Below are positions 2 through 64,000 of a stretch of DNA of 64,000 nt, in pieces. How positions within the stretch are numbered: position 1 is the first letter of the stretch; each line of letters starts with the position of its first letter. The stretch comes from Mucilaginibacter rubeus (lineage in GTDB: Bacteria > Bacteroidota > Bacteroidia > Sphingobacteriales > Sphingobacteriaceae), in NCBI RefSeq assembly GCF_003286415.2, contig NZ_CP043450.1, positions 6,014,001-6,078,000 on the forward strand, written 5' to 3'. The notes under the pieces are model-generated. The model was not told the origin of the DNA. It made no database searches and was given only the letters and a program-made list of their open reading frames with translations. Position numbers and translations under genes: made by a program.

Positions 2-1057
2 GCCATTAAACAAATGGATTTTGTAAACAATGCCGACCTCGGGTTCAATAAAGATGCCGTGCTGGTGCTCCCATGCCCTGCAGATAGCGTTGGCTTATCG
101 CGCGCAGTGAGTTTTAAGCAGCAGGTACTGACCATGCCGGGCGTAAAGGCCGCCAGCTTCGCGTCTGACGTACCATCATCAGATAATAACAATTCTACCA
201 ATTTCAACTTTGATCATTCAGATAAAGACCCCGGTTTCAACGTTTATATGAAAACAGCCGATGCCGACTACTTTAAAACCTTCGGACTTCATTTTGTAGC
301 CGGACAGGGATACGACCAAAGTGAGATCCTGCACCAGGCAGTGATCAATGAAACCATGATGCACAAACTTGGCATCAACCGCGCTCAGGACGCACTCGGG
401 AAAACCATGCGGTTTGGCGATAGCAATTGGCTGCCGATAGCCGGCGTAGTTGCCGATTTCAAAACCAACTCGATGCGGGAGGAAATTAAGCCGCTTGTGA
501 TCTATCCGCAAAAAGCATTTGAACAGGAAATAGCCATAAAAATTGAGGGCAGCAAACTGACCAGAACCGTAGCCGGCTTACAAAGCCTCTGGTTAAACCG
601 CTACCCGGAATATGTTTACAGTGGCTTTTTTGTTGACGAAAGTATTGCCAGTTTCTACAAACAGGAAAACCAGCTCGAGCTGATCTACAAAATATTTTCA
701 CTGATTGCCATTTTTATTTCGTGCCTTGGTTTATACGGACTGGTATCCTTCATGGTAGTGCAGCGTACCCGCGAAGTGGGTATAAGGAAAGTTTTAGGTG
801 CCCCGTTAAGCAGTATCGTGTACCTGTTTTCGAAAGAATTCATCGCGCTTATTGCCATCGCGTTTATGTTGAGCGCGCCCGCCGCCTGGTACATCATGAA
901 AAGCTGGCTGCAAACTTTTGCCTATCGCATCTCGCCAGGTATATGGGCATTTATAGCAGCTATCACGGCTTCGCTATTGATAGGCTGGCTCACGGTAGGC
1001 TATAAAGCCATTAGGGCGGCATTGGCCAATCCGGTTAAAAGTCTGCGCTCTGAGTAA
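2..1057 (+). CDS. MacB/FtsX-type ABC transporter permease, C-terminal part (cut by window edge)
   Basis: The frame is open to the window edge, so the true start lies upstream and the ATG at 14 is internal. What remains is a periplasmic MacB-like domain, then FtsX-type membrane segments near residues 222-245 and 275-340 of the visible part. The signature REVGIRKVLGAP follows the first of these helices, and the protein ends in ALANPVKSLRSE. The same architecture and the same last residues occur in the permease half of the protein at 60178-63834, so the two are paralogues. Family members are inner-membrane permeases, partnered by a separate ATPase, that export or remodel envelope substrates. The substrate is unknown. 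A strong hairpin terminator follows the stop. Confidence 0.9.
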   Translation, partial: AIKQMDFVNNADLGFNKDAVLVLPCPADSVGLSRAVSFKQQVLTMPGVKAASFASDVPSSDNNNSTNFNFDHSDKDPGFNVYMKTADADYFKTFGLHFVAGQGYDQSEILHQAVINETMMHKLGINRAQDALGKTMRFGDSNWLPIAGVVADFKTNSMREEIKPLVIYPQKAFEQEIAIKIEGSKLTRTVAGLQSLWLNRYPEYVYSGFFVDESIASFYKQENQLELIYKIFSLIAIFISCLGLYGLVSFMVVQRTREVGIRKVLGAPLSSIVYLFSKEFIALIAIAFMLSAPAAWYIMKSWLQTFAYRISPGIWAFIAAITASLLIGWLTVGYKAIRAALANPVKSLRSE

Positions 1058-6791: not shown

Positions 6792-8153
6792 TTAGATTTC
6801 GGGTTGTGGAAACGTCAATGAAAAGATGGTTCCGGGCTGTGCCGGTAACACTGTTATTGTACCGCCAAAAAGCTGGATGATTTTCTGGGTTACATACAAA
6901 CCAATGCCGCTACCCTTAAAACTCCTCCCGTTAGGGCTGCGGTAAAATGAGTTGAATATCTTATCGACATCTTCAGTCGGAATGCCAATTCCGGAATCCC
7001 TGATATCTATTTTAATAAAACTATCGTCAACATTAAGTGTACAAACCACCGGCTGACCGCCCGAAAACTTAAAGGCATTGCCAATGATGTTATTTAAAGC
7101 AATGATCAATAGGGGCTTACTAACCATCATTACCAAATGGTTTGCATCTTCAGGCATCTGCTGCATTTCTACAATAAGCTTCCCTTTCGTCTTTTTATTG
7201 TTCCAGTAGTGATGCATGTCCCATACCAGTTCATCTATCATAACGGGGGTCAGCTTTGCGCGCGTATATTCCAGGTCGGACTGCGCCAGTTCCATTAAAC
7301 TGCTTATGGTATCGTTTAAGTTTTCGGCATCGCTGAGTACAGATACCAATAACTGCTGATATTCAGCTGCAGATCTTTCCCGGTTGAGGCCGACTTCAAT
7401 TTCGCCCATGATGCTGGTTACCGGGGTACGTAACTCATGCGACGCATTGGTTACAAATGTTTGCTGAAGCTCAAATGCATTATATAAATGCTCCAGCAAC
7501 CTGTTAAAATTACGCGCAAGCTCGGTAATCTCGTCTCTGCCCTCGCCTTCATGCACCCTGACGTGCAGGTCATTTACGGTGATCCGCTGCATTTGACGGA
7601 TCAAATCATTTATAGGAGACAACGATCGTTGCGCAAACCAGCGGCCGATAAAAAATACGCCGCCGTTGAGCACGATAAAAGCCACCAACATAATACGGGC
7701 AATATCAAGCAACTGGTCATTATTACCCGAATCCACAGCCGATACCAGGATCACAAAATTGCCCTGGTTGTCCCGGTAATAAATGCCTACAGTTTGCCGG
7801 CTACCTTCTGCAAACTGCAAATGCTCTTTTTTACGAACACGATCAATCACTTTATCTGTCCAGTACGAGTTTTTATGAGCCAGAAAAGATTCATTATGCT
7901 CATTATAAATGCCTACACGTTCTTCAGGTAATTTGGCAAGATAACGCTCCCTGACATGCCCCAGTGAATCCGAAGATATTTCATCCGCTTCGAGATATAA
8001 TTGCGCGGCAACTTTTGCCCTGTCGTTCAGGTGTTCATAAAAATCATTCCGCACAAACGAATAAAACACTAAAAAGATGGCCGATAAAATAAGCAGTAAT
8101 ATACCTGCGGTTATCAGCGAAAAATTAAGGGCCAACTTGTTCTTGATCTTCAT
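6792..8153 (-). CDS. Sensor histidine kinase, metal-pump associated
   Basis: A 453-residue membrane kinase. TM1 is at about 10-32, the periplasmic sensor at about 33-150 and TM2 at about 150-170. A HAMP domain follows, then the H-box in ASHELRTPVTS near residue 240, the N-box NNIIGNAFKF, the G1 box DSGIGIP and the G2 box KGSGIGLYVTQK. All catalytic motifs are intact. Its ATG overlaps the response-regulator stop (TAATG), so the two are coupled. Position upstream of the pump genes suggests it senses periplasmic metal (CusS/CzcS-like). The ligand is inference; no clear Met- or His-rich metal motif is evident in the sensor loop. Confidence 0.93.
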   Translation of the reverse strand: MKIKNKLALNFSLITAGILLLILSAIFLVFYSFVRNDFYEHLNDRAKVAAQLYLEADEISSDSLGHVRERYLAKLPEERVGIYNEHNESFLAHKNSYWTDKVIDRVRKKEHLQFAEGSRQTVGIYYRDNQGNFVILVSAVDSGNNDQLLDIARIMLVAFIVLNGGVFFIGRWFAQRSLSPINDLIRQMQRITVNDLHVRVHEGEGRDEITELARNFNRLLEHLYNAFELQQTFVTNASHELRTPVTSIMGEIEVGLNRERSAAEYQQLLVSVLSDAENLNDTISSLMELAQSDLEYTRAKLTPVMIDELVWDMHHYWNNKKTKGKLIVEMQQMPEDANHLVMMVSKPLLIIALNNIIGNAFKFSGGQPVVCTLNVDDSFIKIDIRDSGIGIPTEDVDKIFNSFYRSPNGRSFKGSGIGLYVTQKIIQLFGGTITVLPAQPGTIFSLTFPQPEI

Positions 8154-8836
8154 TAGCCAGCTTTTTCTTTCAGGATATAGCCCATGCCGATATTGGTATG
8201 GATCAATTTACCATGGAAACCTTTCTCGATTTTTTTACGGAGATAATTCACATATACATCGATAAAATTGGTTTTGGTATCAAAGTCTATCCCCCAAACT
8301 TTTTCGGCAATATAATCCCTCGAAAGGGTTTTATTAGGGTGTTGCATAAAAAGCTCCAACAACGCATATTCCTTTGCGGTTAGGATAATTTCGGCTCCCG
8401 CGCGCTCGGCTAACTTACTCGCGGTATTCAATTTCAAATCGGCAAATGAGAGTATCCCAGGTTCGGTTTGCAGCCTTGCCGTTCTGCGCAATAGCGCCTC
8501 AATCCGTGCAAGTAATTCGTTAAAATGAAATGGTTTAACAAGATAATCATCTGCTCCGGCCTGTAAGCCACTAACTTTATTATCGATACTATCTAAGGCA
8601 GTGAGCATCAGTATCGGCGTCAGCACATCCTGCTTGCGGATGTACCGGCAAAGGTCCATTCCATTCCCGTCAGGAAGCAATACATCTATAATAATAAGGT
8701 GATAATCATCTGCCTGGAGCGCTTGTTTTGCATCAAAAACATCTTTGGCCAAACTAACATCATATTGGCATTCCCGGAGTCCTTTTAATAAAAACGCCGC
8801 AACCTTTGGTTCGTCCTCTATTACTAATATGTGCAT
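8153..8836 (-). CDS. OmpR-family response regulator
   Basis: A 227-residue protein with a receiver domain: acidic pocket in VIEDEP at the N-terminus, phospho-acceptor Asp in IIIDVLLPDG near residue 51, and Lys in VKPFHFNELL near 101. A winged-helix DNA-binding domain follows, with DVYVNYLRKKIEKG as the recognition region. It is the first gene of the cluster RR-HK-TolC-adaptor-RND and probably activates the promoter in front of itself and/or the 68-bp gap before the TolC gene. In CopR/CusR systems the pair induces the pump when metal is in excess. Confidence 0.93.
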   Translation of the reverse strand: MHILVIEDEPKVAAFLLKGLRECQYDVSLAKDVFDAKQALQADDYHLIIIDVLLPDGNGMDLCRYIRKQDVLTPILMLTALDSIDNKVSGLQAGADDYLVKPFHFNELLARIEALLRRTARLQTEPGILSFADLKLNTASKLAERAGAEIILTAKEYALLELFMQHPNKTLSRDYIAEKVWGIDFDTKTNFIDVYVNYLRKKIEKGFHGKLIHTNIGMGYILKEKAG

Positions 8837-53270: not shown

Positions 53271-55694
53271 TTAAAACACCTTTTCAATATGGGCCAATTT
53301 TCCCTCCGAATTTATTCCTTCCAGCACCAGTTTAAACTTTTCGGCCAGGTCATTATTATAGAATTGAATGATATATTCTTTCGCTCGCTTATCAAAAATA
53401 ATGTTTGGGTTCCAGTATAAAGTTTTCCGGACATCCGGAACGCCAAGATTAACTGCGGTAGCGTATTCCGGGGAGTAAAATGCAATGGGTGGCGAGTATC
53501 CCCGAAGCGTATTATATTTATTATCCTGGTTGTTAAAATTATAGCCCTTCCCTTTTTTCGTATAAACGGCAATAACTCCTGCATAAGCACCAAAAATCCC
53601 TCCGGCGGCCGGATCGTATACTTTCACATAGTCAAACTCCTCCATCCCTATGTTGCGAATATCAGATGCCGAACTTTTCTGATTATTAAGAAAAAAACTA
53701 ACCCGACCTCTCCATGATGCACTTGGTGTTAGCGACACAGGGTTTGAAATTTCCAATCCGGGTATCTTTCCTAAAAGGTATTGAAACAAGGAAACGAAGT
53801 TTAAGGCCTTTTTATCATTGCCAATATTAAAGTTTTTGGAAATGCCCCCGCTGAAAATGCCTAATGTATATGTTTCGTCAACTTTTTGATTTTCAGTAAT
53901 GGCTTTGGCTGTAATCTTTACCTCCTTTAAAGCTTTAACATTGTTATGTGTACGATGAACAACAGGTATGGCAGATACGTTTCTATTATCGCCAATCAGT
54001 TGGAATTGTTCATCCCTTAATTCCTTACGTAAAGTTTGGGCGCTATCGATCAAGCCATTATTTAAAACAGCACTATGCAGATCTGTTTCTATTGACTTTT
54101 CGGGCAGCCTGAAGTATAATTTAGCATCCCCATAAAATATAAGGCCGTCTTTGAAAAAGGCCCCGGATTTATCGGTTTTAACAGGCACCAAAACAGAACT
54201 TGAATCAGCGGCCTGAACTATTACATTCATATTCAGTCCGGAAAACCCATCGCGTGATTTTGCGGCAGCATTTACATTTCCGCTTATAGTCAAATAATTA
54301 TGATCGACAAGTGAACTTATCTTTTGCTTTTCAACGGAATCCGCCCAATTATACTTTCTCCAGCCATGCGTCAACATTACCAAATCCAATTCGTTCGCTT
54401 TATCTCCCCCCTCCGAGAAATAATAGTAAGGGTTGATTATTTTACCACGCAGGTCACCGGTTAAAAGCAGGCTTGAAATGATATCGCCATTCCGGGAGAA
54501 ATGCCCGCTACTGCTATAGTCAGATACCGATACCGAAATATTTGACCTGATTGTATCGCTTACAAATAACCGGATCTTATTAAGTGTGCGCTTTCGCTTA
54601 TCTACTGCAACAAATTGCGTATCTACATCAAATTTGTAGTTGAAGTTATTTACAAAGGTTAGGCGCGCTGCTATTGGCACCCTGTCTGCATTTAATAATT
54701 TAATTTCCATGATGCCCGTTGGCAATCCTTTAAGTGGGATAACGCCATTCACGGCTTCACTCTCAGACAGGCTAATTTTAGCCTCGTAAACTTGATTTCC
54801 GTCAATCGTAGCTATGATAACCAGGTTCTTGTTATTCTCCTCAACGGTCTTTGTTCGATACACAAAAAACTTCTTTCCATCTTTGAGGTCATTAACGTGC
54901 ATTGCTACACCTCGTGATTTCCTCTCGGGAAGCCTGACGCTATGATTTAATCCATCAGCCGTTTTCCATTCAGCAATGTAATCTTTACCGGCTTCCGGAA
55001 GCATGGTCATGTTTCCCATTCCGTCATGACTTGTTTCGAAATTAACAAGCACTTTATCATCACATTTTACAACACCTTTAATGTTTACAGGGATATCATT
55101 ATTATCGGTAAAACTAAATGCAACCAACGACGGGAGCCCGTTTATCCAATCACCTCCCTCGGGCAAGAAATGCGGATTTGCAACAGTTGAATCCTGTGTT
55201 GCCTGATGGGTTCCAGTATACATCACAGGTATCCTTGTAATGTACCCATTTCCAGCTGTTTCTTTTAAAAGTTGCGCGGTGTAGGCACGGCAATAAACAC
55301 CCTTCAAACCGCCTGTATCTGGCAATATAATGCTCCCGGAAGCTGTCGATTCAAAAATTGGGGCTGTGATCCGTTGCCGCATGTGTCCATCACCTGTATA
55401 AACTTCGAGATAAAAGTTCTTAGACCTCCATTTCGTATTCCCTCCTTCTACCAGGTATGCTTTGAACCAGGCGGTATCGCCAGGCGCATAGTTGTCCCGG
55501 TCGAAATGGAGATATACTTTACTGTTTTTTTGATGGGCGGTTAAGTCCGATAGTTTTAAATTACCATTCTGCGCAAAACAGGAATTGGTGATAAACGCAA
55601 CCAGTATAACATATCTAAAGCTACACCGCAGGATGCATTTTTTGAATATTTTCAAAATAAGGCATTGAGACAAGGTAAGGTTCATGGTAAACAA
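53271..55694 (-). CDS. Secreted MG2-domain/TonB-plug protein without a beta-barrel
   Basis: 807 residues. The signal-like stretch ends near NSCFAQ (about 42). Then come VYLHFDRDNYAPGDTAWFKA (alpha-2-macroglobulin MG2-type start), several beta-rich domains, and late in the protein a TonB-receptor plug-like part (LGKIPGLEISNPV, VSFFLNN, VKVYDPAAGGIFGAYAGVIA). No outer-membrane barrel follows. Such proteins are common in Bacteroidota and of unknown role; they may act with SusC-like receptors or as surface carriers. The likely start could also be one of the internal ATGs before the signal core. Confidence 0.7.
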   Translation of the reverse strand: MFTMNLTLSQCLILKIFKKCILRCSFRYVILVAFITNSCFAQNGNLKLSDLTAHQKNSKVYLHFDRDNYAPGDTAWFKAYLVEGGNTKWRSKNFYLEVYTGDGHMRQRITAPIFESTASGSIILPDTGGLKGVYCRAYTAQLLKETAGNGYITRIPVMYTGTHQATQDSTVANPHFLPEGGDWINGLPSLVAFSFTDNNDIPVNIKGVVKCDDKVLVNFETSHDGMGNMTMLPEAGKDYIAEWKTADGLNHSVRLPERKSRGVAMHVNDLKDGKKFFVYRTKTVEENNKNLVIIATIDGNQVYEAKISLSESEAVNGVIPLKGLPTGIMEIKLLNADRVPIAARLTFVNNFNYKFDVDTQFVAVDKRKRTLNKIRLFVSDTIRSNISVSVSDYSSSGHFSRNGDIISSLLLTGDLRGKIINPYYYFSEGGDKANELDLVMLTHGWRKYNWADSVEKQKISSLVDHNYLTISGNVNAAAKSRDGFSGLNMNVIVQAADSSSVLVPVKTDKSGAFFKDGLIFYGDAKLYFRLPEKSIETDLHSAVLNNGLIDSAQTLRKELRDEQFQLIGDNRNVSAIPVVHRTHNNVKALKEVKITAKAITENQKVDETYTLGIFSGGISKNFNIGNDKKALNFVSLFQYLLGKIPGLEISNPVSLTPSASWRGRVSFFLNNQKSSASDIRNIGMEEFDYVKVYDPAAGGIFGAYAGVIAVYTKKGKGYNFNNQDNKYNTLRGYSPPIAFYSPEYATAVNLGVPDVRKTLYWNPNIIFDKRAKEYIIQFYNNDLAEKFKLVLEGINSEGKLAHIEKVF

Positions 55695-59536: not shown

Positions 59537-60097
59537 TTATTTTACACGCTCAACATATTCGCCAGTACGTGTATCTACTTTTATTTTATCACCCTGATTT
59601 ATAAAAAGCGGCACTTTCATTTCTATGCCATTCTCCGTCGTCGCGTTTTTCAACGCGCCGGAAGAGGTGTCACCTTTAACAGCTGGTTCGGTATAAGTAA
59701 TTTCCAGGTCAACATGATTTGGCGCGGTTGCCATTATTGGCTCTTCACTTTCAAAAGATACAATTACATTCATCCCTTCTTTCAAAAATTTAGCAGCCGG
59801 GCCAAACAGGGCTTTAGGAATACTATGCTGATCATAAGTAGTATTATCCATGATCACCATGTAATCGCCCTCTTCATACAGGTATTGATAATCATTAGTT
59901 TCTACCCGGCAAATCTCAACCTGCTCGTCAGTAGCCAAACGGGCTTCTACAATTTTTCCTGTTTTAATGTTACGAAACTTATCTAAATAGAAAGCTCCGC
60001 CTTTGCCCGGTGTGCGATGTAAAACTTCCGTAACAGTTACCAACTCGCCGTTGTAGCGTAATATATTCCCTACTTTAATTTCAGATGCCTTTGCCAT
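59537..60097 (-). CDS. efp: Elongation factor P
   Basis: Start at ATG 60097 (MAKASEIKVGNILRYNGELV), 186 residues, the usual EF-P length; the longer frame to 60127 adds ten unconserved residues. Three OB/KOW-type domains. Lys32 at the loop tip in TPGKGGAF is the residue that enters the peptidyl-transferase site. The C-terminus GDKIKVDTRTGEYVERVK is canonical. It relieves ribosome stalling at polyproline. No modification gene is adjacent. Confidence 0.97.
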   Translation of the reverse strand: MAKASEIKVGNILRYNGELVTVTEVLHRTPGKGGAFYLDKFRNIKTGKIVEARLATDEQVEICRVETNDYQYLYEEGDYMVIMDNTTYDQHSIPKALFGPAAKFLKEGMNVIVSFESEEPIMATAPNHVDLEITYTEPAVKGDTSSGALKNATTENGIEMKVPLFINQGDKIKVDTRTGEYVERVK

Positions 60098-60177
60098 GAA
60101 AATACCTTTGTAAATTTTTGAAGCCAAAGATAGGTCAAGTTATTGAAAAAGCTTTATCTAAAAACAACAGGGAATTG

Positions 60178-63100
60178 CTATTCGCTCCTTAAACTCTTCA
60201 CAGGGTTAGCCAGGGCCGCTCTCATCGCCTTGTAACCTACGCTTGTCCAGGCAATAATTACCGATGCCAATACCGCCACAATAAATATATCGGGACCAAT
60301 AGTGATCCTGTAGGTAAAATCCTGCAGCCATTTATGCATAAAATAATACCCTATAGGGGCTGATATAGCGAACGCGATAACAATAAGCACAGTAAACTCT
60401 TTGGAGAACAGGTAAATAATATGCCCAACGGATGCTCCCAAGGTTTTACGGATACCGACCTCTTTAGTGCGCTGCAAAGCCATGAATGACACAAGACCAT
60501 ACAAGCCAAGGCATGAAATGAATATCGCTATACCGGCAAATATTTTGAAAAGTGTGGATAGCTCCTCCTCGTTGTTATAAAAACTGGCAATGGTTTTATC
60601 AAGAAACTGGTATTCATAGATCCCTTCCGGATAGGTCTTGTTCCACAGGGTTTCAACACTGGCCAGGGTTTGCTTCAGGTTTTGAGGGCTAACCTTAATA
60701 TTCAGCCTGGAATACTGTGCTTTCCAGGGTCCCATCAATACTGGCGGAATAGCGGTGCGCAGTGAACCTGTATTAAAATCCTTTACCACACCGGTAATTC
60801 GCGCTTTTAGATTTTTGTTATTCCATAGCATGATGTTTTTACCTATGACCTGCTTTGGATCGGTGATACCCAATTTATGGATCAAGGTTTCATTAACAAC
60901 ATAGCCTGATATGGTATCCGCTTTATTGTACGGGCCTCCTGCTAAAAACTGGATATCGTATAATTTGAAATAATCAACATCGGCCCATTTCAAACATGCG
61001 CCAAAATCAACCTGCTTGTCTGCATTATTGAATTTAAAATCGCTAAACCAACCACCATTATCAGATGGGGCGTATAAACTAACGCTTACAGCTTTAATGC
61101 CCGGTTGCTGCAAAAGCTGATCTTTCAGTGCCCCCACTCTTGCCCTGCTGATACTATCGCCGGGAAAAGGAACGGTAATTACAGCATCTTTATTAAATCC
61201 GAGCGATTTGCTTTTGAAATAATTCATCTGATAGATCAATACCAGCGTTCCGATCACGAGGAATTGAGCTATGCAGAATTGCACCACCACCAGCACCCGC
61301 CGTAGGGATATACCACTCGCGCGCCCGGCATTGATCTTATTTCTTAAGGCCTCCATTGGGTTAAACCCGGATAATACCAGCGCGGGGTAAAACCCGGCCA
61401 AAAACGTAACCCCAATAACTACTCCGGCCAAAAACAAGATCACCATCGGGTCTGCCAGGAAGCCCCCGCTTAGCTGCACCTCAAGCAAACTGTTCAGCAT
61501 TGGTAAAGTGATAAGGGCAGCAATTGCGGCCAACACAACGGCAAACAAGGTAATGATCAAGGTTTCGGCAATAAATTGCAGAACCAGTTGGTACCGGTTA
61601 CTGCCCAAAACTTTACGTATGCCAACCTCTTTTGAGCGGTTTACAGCCTGCGCGGTAGCCAGATTAATAAAGTTAACACAGGCTATAACCAGCAGAAATA
61701 AGCCAATCAAACTGATAACATTAATGAGTTGCTTGCTAAAGGGGTGGTTGCTATACACATTAACCTCGGTGTTATAATGCATATCGGCCAATGCCTGTAA
61801 TTGAAAAATCTCGTTTTTGTTGTAAGGTGCCGGGATATGTCTTTTAGCCAGTGATGCAAGCTCGGTGTTAAGCTGCTTTTCATTCATGCCCAGGGGCAAA
61901 ACAACGTAACAATTCTTGTCGCTGAAAGTACTTATCCAATCCTGGGCATTCCCGCTAAGGTCGCCCCCCTTGTCAACAAGCGTGATCCAGGATATTGCCA
62001 GTTTTAACGGAAAATCAGTATTCACCGGTGTATCCTCCAATATCCCGGTCACCTTCAAATCGCGCCTATTTTCATATCGCACTATTTTCCCCATGGCCTT
62101 ATGCCAATCGCCAAAAAACTTATCGGCTTCGCTACGGGATAGCACAATGGTATTAGGCTCTGCTAAGGCGGTATTTTTATCTCCCGCCAGCCAGCTAAAT
62201 GCAAAAATCTGAAAGAAGGCCGGATCAGCATAATAAGCCAGATCTTCTTTAAACTTCTTCATAGCGCCAACATTTCGCGCGTCCCCCACGGCATAATGCG
62301 AACCATCATTCTTCATGATATTCGCTACCTGTTTTACCTGCGGGATGTCAAGCTTTAAACCTTCTGCCAGCGGTAAAGGAGTCCCCGAATTGGCATGCGT
62401 ACCATCGGGACCGCTGTTCGCTGTCACAACGCGATAGATCCTGTCTTTATTAGCATGAAAATTATCAAAACTTGTTTCATACTGCACAACGAGGAATATC
62501 AGCAGGCAGGCGGCAATGCCTATTGCCAAACCTGTAATATTAATGGAAGCGTAGCTTTTGTTACGCATAAGATTGCGCCAGGCGATTTTGAAGTAATTTT
62601 TGATCATTGCTTTGCGATTTGGTTTCATACCGGTCCATTTCGGGGCCGTTTCCTGGTACAAAAATACCGTCGCAAAACGGGGCTGGCGCTCCAAATTATA
62701 ATATGGTCGCTCTTTTTTGAGTTCAGATTTGTATTCTGCGGGGCTTTTACCTGTTAATTCTTTAAACGCGCGGTTAAAGGTAGTTTTGGAATTAAAGCCG
62801 GATTCAAGCGCGATGCCAAGCAGGGTTAAATGTTCATTAGTGGGATCCTGCATTTTCCAGGCTACCTCAGCTACGCGATATTCATTAATGAAATCATTAA
62901 AGCTTTTTTTGAGCACGGTATTAATGATCCGGGATAGTTCGTTAGGGTGCAATTCAAGTTTTTCCGCCAGCGAACGCAAACTAAGCCCCGGGTCCAGATA
63001 ATATTGATTAGCTTTTAATACCCGCTTCAGCCAGGTGCCCTTTTGCCTTAACTCTGCCGGTGCCGCAGGTTTTGAAAGGACGGGTGCAACAGCAGGCACT

Positions 63101-63834
63101 CCAACTTCTGGTCTTAAAAAAGCAATAGCTGCAGTCCTGATGGTTAGTATCACCCAAAGCAGGTAAAAGGGATAATAAGCATATACCCTTAATGTATGAT
63201 GATAACTCCAATAATCGACAGCAGCAAAGAGTGTCCAACATAACCATAGCAAACCGAAACCAGTTAACAAATGATGAAGCCACCTCATCTCATACCGGTA
63301 CCTATCACCATTATTAAATTTTATACGCGCATAAAAACGTTCTATAAGCCGGTGAGATAAATACAGGTAAGTAATGACCGAAGCAAACGCGAGGATCTGC
63401 AATACCGGATTTAACTGTTGAAAAATGGTTGTATTATAGGCAGGCACACCTGTTCTTATGCTTTCGTTAACTTCCAAAATTTGAACACTCAATTCAAACA
63501 ATAGCGGAATAAAATGCAATAAGTCCTTAAACTGGATCTTATACTTAGGATGGGTTAATTTAAGCACGTAAAAGAAAATCAACGGACCAGATGCCAGCGA
63601 AAACTGTAATGGCAACCAACTCCAACGTGTGATATAGTTCGTCAATTCAATATCAATAGACAATATGCGGGCCATGTATAAAACAACAGCCATCAGCGCC
63701 AGGGCCAGGAAGCGGTTTGCCGCCTTATTCACTCTTTTGGTGAACCATAAAAGCATGGCAAAGCCTGCTCCAAGGAAAATAGTTCCTAAAAAGGCAATAT
63801 CATAAGCGTTGATATGGAATGTATAGGTTTTCAA
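60178..63834 (-). CDS. Fusion of membrane-bound AraC regulator with MacB/FtsX permease
   Basis: 1218 residues in one open frame. Residues 1-240 hold about seven TM helices (DIAFLGTIFLGAGFAMLLWF onward). An AraC-type double HTH lies at about 275-370 (LSLRSLAEKLELHPNELSRI; LLGIALESGFNSKTTFNRAF; ELTGKSPAEYKSEL). A short linker follows, and at about 411 a complete permease begins at MIKNYFKIAWRNLMRNKSYA, with MacB periplasmic domains and FtsX helices, ending in ALANPVKSLRSE. Membrane AraC proteins and such permeases are usually separate genes. I see no stop between them. It shares family and C-terminal tail with the permease at the left edge of the window. Confidence 0.85.
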   Translation of the reverse strand: MKTYTFHINAYDIAFLGTIFLGAGFAMLLWFTKRVNKAANRFLALALMAVVLYMARILSIDIELTNYITRWSWLPLQFSLASGPLIFFYVLKLTHPKYKIQFKDLLHFIPLLFELSVQILEVNESIRTGVPAYNTTIFQQLNPVLQILAFASVITYLYLSHRLIERFYARIKFNNGDRYRYEMRWLHHLLTGFGLLWLCWTLFAAVDYWSYHHTLRVYAYYPFYLLWVILTIRTAAIAFLRPEVGVPAVAPVLSKPAAPAELRQKGTWLKRVLKANQYYLDPGLSLRSLAEKLELHPNELSRIINTVLKKSFNDFINEYRVAEVAWKMQDPTNEHLTLLGIALESGFNSKTTFNRAFKELTGKSPAEYKSELKKERPYYNLERQPRFATVFLYQETAPKWTGMKPNRKAMIKNYFKIAWRNLMRNKSYASINITGLAIGIAACLLIFLVVQYETSFDNFHANKDRIYRVVTANSGPDGTHANSGTPLPLAEGLKLDIPQVKQVANIMKNDGSHYAVGDARNVGAMKKFKEDLAYYADPAFFQIFAFSWLAGDKNTALAEPNTIVLSRSEADKFFGDWHKAMGKIVRYENRRDLKVTGILEDTPVNTDFPLKLAISWITLVDKGGDLSGNAQDWISTFSDKNCYVVLPLGMNEKQLNTELASLAKRHIPAPYNKNEIFQLQALADMHYNTEVNVYSNHPFSKQLINVISLIGLFLLVIACVNFINLATAQAVNRSKEVGIRKVLGSNRYQLVLQFIAETLIITLFAVVLAAIAALITLPMLNSLLEVQLSGGFLADPMVILFLAGVVIGVTFLAGFYPALVLSGFNPMEALRNKINAGRASGISLRRVLVVVQFCIAQFLVIGTLVLIYQMNYFKSKSLGFNKDAVITVPFPGDSISRARVGALKDQLLQQPGIKAVSVSLYAPSDNGGWFSDFKFNNADKQVDFGACLKWADVDYFKLYDIQFLAGGPYNKADTISGYVVNETLIHKLGITDPKQVIGKNIMLWNNKNLKARITGVVKDFNTGSLRTAIPPVLMGPWKAQYSRLNIKVSPQNLKQTLASVETLWNKTYPEGIYEYQFLDKTIASFYNNEEELSTLFKIFAGIAIFISCLGLYGLVSFMALQRTKEVGIRKTLGASVGHIIYLFSKEFTVLIVIAFAISAPIGYYFMHKWLQDFTYRITIGPDIFIVAVLASVIIAWTSVGYKAMRAALANPVKSLRSE

Positions 63835-64000
63835 TCAGCTTAAATGGCTCAATCGTTGTTCCAAATATACAACACATTGATCTCCACAAAGATAACCTAT
63901 TTAGATAGAAATACATCGTAACAAAACCGGACATATACCCGTCCGGTTCCGGATGCCAAAGCTGATTACAACCGGCTCCGCTCTTCGCCTGAGCCGCTGT

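Follow-up and report, generated by a model that had tools for sequence, protein, structure and literature searches.

How a single gene came to join a membrane-bound transcription regulator to an entire transporter, and what such a protein might do, is the question raised by positions 60178–63834 (reverse strand) of the 64,000-nucleotide stretch of Mucilaginibacter rubeus DNA analysed here, which we call the window. To our knowledge, covalent fusion of a transcription factor to a whole transporter is rare. The gene is one uninterrupted open reading frame of 1218 amino acids with no stop or frame change, including across 62560–62740, the region containing the interval (62590–62740) in which the preliminary description had asked for a search for a hidden break. 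The order that it had proposed, a 7-TM block followed by an AraC helix-turn-helix (HTH) pair and a full FtsX-type permease in one frame, is borne out and is conserved in relatives. Such fusions provide a direct route to testing how transcription can come under the control of a multi-pass membrane protein, and they bear on the role of orphan FtsX-type permeases and their ATPase, as well as on the possibility that Bacteroidota obtain two proteins from one gene by means of a conserved internal start. The parts are already known, namely membrane-bound one-component regulators (PMC10269533) and duplicated FtsX-type permeases (ADOP; YbbP, PMC12646458). In the literature searched, whose coverage mostly left out subscription papers, we found no description of an AraC–FtsX or other regulator–permease fusion, or of cassette exchange.

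The N-terminal membrane sensor block (residues 10–240; 63115–63807, reverse strand) was modelled with AlphaFold2 as part of residues 1–410, using the alignment of fusions as input. The model predicts seven helices, at residues 10–31, 37–61, 79–94, 102–128, 136–170, 184–210 and 217–240, and structure comparison identifies a generic 7TM bundle; we claim no kinship with GPCRs, as the VIA Z scores of about 15 to many GPCRs are barely above the level that helical bundles reach by chance. The AraC-type DNA-binding domain follows at residues 259–374 (62713–63060, reverse strand), where Pfam HTH_18 and HTH_AraC both exceed their cut-offs (HTH_18, PF12833, residues 289–369, E = 2.7e-15, 56.8 bits against a curated cut-off of 33.6). 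Its predicted fold comprises seven helices forming a double HTH, and its structural matches in Foldseek and VIA are AraC-family domains (3oou, 6swi and ToxT structures). As a single chain that carries both TM segments and a DNA-binding domain, the protein is a predicted transmembrane transcription regulator on the evidence of Pfam and AlphaFold2. Like regulators of the ToxR, CadC and BcrR type (surveyed in PMC10269533, whose main text contains neither the word "permease" nor the word "fused"), it would be a one-component DNA-binding protein held in the membrane; unlike them, it carries an AraC-type HTH behind seven TM helices and ahead of a whole permease. Bacteroidota also possess closer counterparts, the standalone 7-TM AraC regulators (Spirosoma L129 and Flavobacteriaceae L133, for example), which have the same TM block and HTH but stop after the HTH and lack the promoter element described below. 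Several of the nearest of these, L129, L238, L242 and L133, adjoin a serine hydrolase gene (PF00144) and not a permease; the hydrolase neighbour recalls TesA, partner of YbbP, the closest permease fold.

Residues 410–1218 (60181–62607, reverse strand) form a duplicated MacB_PCD/FtsX permease resembling YbbP and ADOP proteins, with two Pfam MacB_PCD stretches (best 431–608) and two FtsX stretches (best 709–826). In a second AlphaFold2 model, covering the HTH and the permease (mean pLDDT 78), the best fold match is E. coli YbbP (9ge6; VIA Z 24.8 over 667 residues), followed by BceB, MacB, FtsX and LolC/E in Foldseek and VIA, so that the predicted fold is that of a type VII ABC transporter permease. 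The ADOP model TIGR03434 aligns over positions 6–803 of 803 (E = 2.8e-89), yet its 300.2 bits fall below the curated cut-off of 622.3, which keeps the protein outside the formal family. Two other ADOP traits are present: the internal MacB_PCD/FtsX duplication, visible both in the Pfam stretches and in the predicted fold, and the lack of an adjacent ABC ATPase, the nearest PF00005 match lying more than 15 kb from every one of the eight M. rubeus fusions. MacB proper, defined by an ATPase in the same chain, does not apply, as the fusion protein has no ABC_tran domain. The fusions thus share with ADOP permeases and YbbP (YbbAP-TesA, PDB 9GE6) the two repeats per chain and large paralogous sets, and with ADOP permeases also the absence of a neighbouring ATPase gene; they differ in the 409-residue regulator in front, and no ATPase or hydrolase partner was identified for them. 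A looser parallel is offered by PadR genes beside ADOP permeases, where a regulator is likewise linked to an orphan permease (Spirosoma L175: PadR at 8125–8466, permease from 8545); PadR, however, is soluble and its gene merely adjacent. In the M. rubeus genome, about 23 orphan duplicated permeases stand in tandem at G000:C1:2162571-2220897 (L096, L097, L192 and neighbours), bracketed by stand-alone ABC ATPases of 230 and 227 amino acids (2162571+ and 2220451+). These two are candidate partners and could act in trans for every member of the orphan family.

Many species of Mucilaginibacter have the same architecture, as do Olivibacter domesticus, Chitinophaga rupis, Hufsiella ginkgonis, Hufsiella arboris and a Chitinophagaceae MAG, and 83 distinct intact fusions (Mucilaginibacter, Hufsiella, Olivibacter, Chitinophaga and MAGs) could be aligned. 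Relatives keep the fusion, and the preliminary description's proviso that they might always carry two genes fails for that reason. The M. rubeus genome, a single contig of 7.63 Mb, holds seven intact fusions and one broken copy beside some 40 unfused paralogues, one of which was correctly recognized at the left edge of the window as resembling the permease half: the C-terminal part of an orphan permease lacking the regulator (2–1057, forward strand; 818 amino acids in full, 49% identical to the fused permease). A survey of 395 evenly sampled Bacteroidota genomes detected intact fusions only in the genus of the window, plus one decayed copy outside it (G304); regulators of the standalone 7-TM AraC kind, 370–420 amino acids long, occur in several families of that sample. 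Broken fusion copies are scattered (L015, L072, L082, L126, L136), each interrupted at a different site. The broken M. rubeus copy (L015:1909-5411; C1:1162909-), the eighth fusion of that genome, has a frame change splitting the first permease half while its promoter element is the closest of all to the consensus, and it may be a pseudogene or reflect a sequencing error. At least five fusion genes lie in tandem arrays in one genome (L076 and L077 at G014:C11, L078 at G014:C29), likely sites of module exchange. PADLOC gave no match to a defence system.

To compare the histories of the two halves, we analysed the 83 distinct fusions together with 45 orphan permeases and 41 standalone regulators. 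The fused/orphan label changes 23–24 times on the permease tree, 20 of these changes being forced by strongly supported branches, a count in which gains and losses are inseparable; on the regulator tree the fused/standalone label changes only twice. An AU test on 44 permeases rejected a single clade of fused permeases (p = 2.9e-5). Pairwise identities of the regulator and permease halves are nearly uncorrelated across the 83 fusions (rho = 0.10). Broken down by segment, the correlations are 0.64–0.80 within the TM block plus first HTH half, 0.34–0.45 between that part and the second HTH half or the linker, and 0.32–0.69 among the permease segments, whereas values between the regulator and permease blocks range from −0.04 to 0.18. 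The extremes are pronounced: in one pair the permeases are 92% identical and the regulator modules 43%, in another 32% and 80%, respectively. L094 and L095 share 92% of their permease residues and about 34% of their TM blocks, and L116 and L073 have TM blocks that are 80–93% identical on permeases that are 24–42% identical. One regulator lineage occurs on permeases only ~30% identical to each other, and the converse is also seen. The joint itself is sharp, the linker tracking the regulator weakly and the first 60 permease residues tracking the permease; it falls at Met410, the equivalent of the start of unfused permeases, which is Met in 83 of 83 fusions. Judged from these trees and alignments, the comparison shows that regulator modules have been swapped repeatedly between permeases exactly at the permease start codon, and that the cassette has largely one phylogenetic origin yet occupies many permease lineages. 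Such frequent joining or rejoining of the module to different permeases amounts to a natural domain-swap experiment.

The coding region is preceded by a conserved element that appears to belong to the same module. Translation starts at a TTG codon (63832–63834, reverse strand), assigned because a stop codon immediately precedes it and because TTG, GTG or ATG stands at this position in most relatives (65, 8 and 5 of the 83 fusions, respectively). Directly ahead of it, alignment and a sequence model delineate a promoter/leader element of ~65 nt with consensus TAATTTTTTATnTATCAATATnTTATnAATTTGGAACAGCGATTGAGnnnnTTAAnTnA (63835–63900, reverse strand), which includes TATATTTG at 63862–63869 (reverse strand), resembling the Bacteroidota −7 box TAnnTTTG. 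The model recovered about 32 of 42 fusion starts outside its training set, some of the test species being close to training species; among standalone regulators it found none, and among orphan permeases its hits stayed at noise level. In a scan of the M. rubeus genome, seven of the eight fusions scored E < 1e-4 and the eighth 0.35, with everything else at noise; as all eight belonged to the training set, only the exclusivity of that scan is informative. Mean identity is 0.53 upstream of the gene against 0.35 downstream; the upstream identities follow those of the regulator half (rho = 0.47) and not those of the permease half (0.13), which shows that the element travels with the regulator. As a candidate operator we considered the inverted repeat TCAAT-N23-ATTGA, in which 81% of cells pair; its covariation is no greater than in shuffled alignments, so that it is at most a putative operator of the HTH. 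Alternatively, the element may be a core promoter, recognized by a sigma factor or another regulator. On the protein side, the most conserved segment is the second HTH half, with a mean identity of 0.70 compared with 0.26–0.49 for the permease, as would fit all these HTHs binding one shared site. Considering that the HTHs seem to share one target and that the only known shared, confined DNA element is their own promoter region, we propose self- and cross-regulation.

Between the HTH and the permease lies a linker of residues 375–409 (62608–62712, reverse strand), predicted to be disordered (pLDDT 35–55 in AlphaFold2), and nowhere in the gene are synonymous sites conserved more strongly. When 1194 eight-codon windows are ranked by excess codon identity, the first 25 all fall within residues 370–412, with values of 0.29–0.43 against an all-window mean of 0.077 (sd 0.065). 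The linker ends at the invariant ATG of Met410 (62605–62607, reverse strand), the old permease start and a probable second translation start. Upstream of this codon, A occupies position −6 in 94% of fusions and positions −11, −12 and −13 in 84, 99 and 93%, compared with 17–31% at the same positions of 1986 other in-frame ATGs; position −3 is mostly T and not the favoured A. Codon usage ahead of it is skewed as well: TTA, which makes up 18% of Leu codons over the whole gene, predominates for Leu, and CGC, which makes up 24% of Arg codons, predominates for Arg. In Flavobacterium johnsoniae, A at −3, −6, −12 and −13 raises initiation and A is enriched from −14 to −11 (PMC6847099). The simplest reading, suggested by this context, is that the internal ATG is a functional start producing free permease, opposite the weak TTG used for the whole protein. 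The preliminary description of one polypeptide is then right for the fused frame, which is intact, and perhaps incomplete, because a conserved internal ATG in a Bacteroidota-like context suggests additional free permease. The conservation outreaches the initiation region, so an internal start explains it only in part; the further conserved islands upstream, CCAncTTATAATTTGG and GTAATTTCG, may mark an internal promoter or the recombination joint. Other causes were discarded. No RNA structure was predicted, other frames of the linker are open in just 0–5 of 83 fusions, and identity within genomes (0.653) is close to that between genomes (0.640), which speaks against gene conversion. A second copy of the promoter core, TTATAATTTGG, is only mildly enriched, the linker holding the best site in 9 of 83 fusions versus about 3 expected. 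Apparent linker remnants ahead of orphan permeases (E = 0.002–0.09, in the tandem array) are mostly due to the first permease codons. A pattern defined post hoc, T.AA[AC]CG within 30 nt of the ATG, occurs in 6 of 32 orphan permease leaders (L185, L192, L101 and L096) against a background of 1.9%; it resembles the end of the fusion linker and is perhaps its origin.

We propose that these genes carry a portable and probably self-regulating cassette, plugged into YbbP/ADOP-like orphan permeases at their start codon, a reading that we consider to have an even chance of being correct. The cassette would consist of the promoter element, the TTG start, the 7-TM sensor, the AraC HTH and the linker, with the start codon of a duplicated FtsX-type permease as the exact point of in-frame joining. 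Control would be driven by a signal that the 7-TM block perceives within the membrane or close to it; the membrane-held HTH would bind the promoter element of its own gene as well as those of paralogous genes, and any permease acquiring the cassette would fall under the same self-control. The weak TTG would yield a small amount of fused regulator-permease and the internal ATG additional free permease, with an ABC ATPase encoded elsewhere borrowed in trans. A more ambitious version, which we hold only tentatively, sees two-in-one genes on the scale of a genus, in which a mobile cassette sits on dozens of permeases, autoregulates through one operator and, by way of a strong internal start, delivers a scarce tethered regulator-transporter along with a free transporter.

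Of the competing explanations, the one closest to the preliminary description is that the permease, together with a borrowed ATPase, changes shape with substrate or flux and relays its transport state through the linker to the HTH. The two halves are physically fused, and in its fold the permease is similar to BceB and YbbP, both of them transporters that undergo large conformational changes. A precedent exists in BceAB, which is thought to pass its transport state to the kinase BceS and interacts with this membrane partner (PMC12646458); like the fusion, that system pairs an FtsX-type permease with a membrane signalling partner, but it uses separate proteins, a histidine kinase and a cognate ATPase, none of which is seen here. 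A finely tuned sensor–permease pair is also what some of the sequence evidence appears to speak against, because regulator lineages sit on distant permeases and the two halves evolve almost independently of each other. Furthermore, a predicted disordered linker is a poor lever, and the probable internal start would release permease unlinked to any regulator. As partners exchange freely and the linker is disordered, we regard sensing through the fusion as possible but unlikely, and do not favour it.

Less probable again is a role of the HTH in trans, at other genes. The permease would then be no more than a partner expressed in step with the regulator, and the element a strong core promoter recognized by a different factor. 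The overlap of the element with the −7 box and the lack of covariation support for the palindrome agree with this, yet the conservation far exceeds that of a core promoter and is confined to fusions, and an HTH so strongly conserved over paralogues would be odd when no other shared site was found. The modular history could also reflect a promoter–regulator unit of little function that moves through a recombining permease family, spreading because permease starts share sequence, with no specific coupling. The many paralogues, the tandem fusion arrays (G014), the several broken copies and the recurrence of joining at the ATG, where permeases have common sequence, would all be expected; mostly intact frames, a conserved HTH and start context, and linker DNA conserved across species without homogenization within genomes make this improbable. 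Finally, an assembly or sequencing artefact joining two genes deserves almost no credence: the same fusion recurs in dozens of independent assemblies, an ortholog whose regulator half is about 92% identical has an equally long frame, and nothing was found in favour, although certain paralogues elsewhere are frame-broken.

Around the gene, an 807-amino-acid open reading frame at 53271–55694 (reverse strand) has no Pfam or NCBIfam match at 1e-3. A further fusion, L013 (C1:6010201-), lies just outside the window and is divergent from the orphan permease at its left edge. About 50 bases after the fusion, the co-directional frame at 59537–60127 (reverse strand) reads like elongation factor P.
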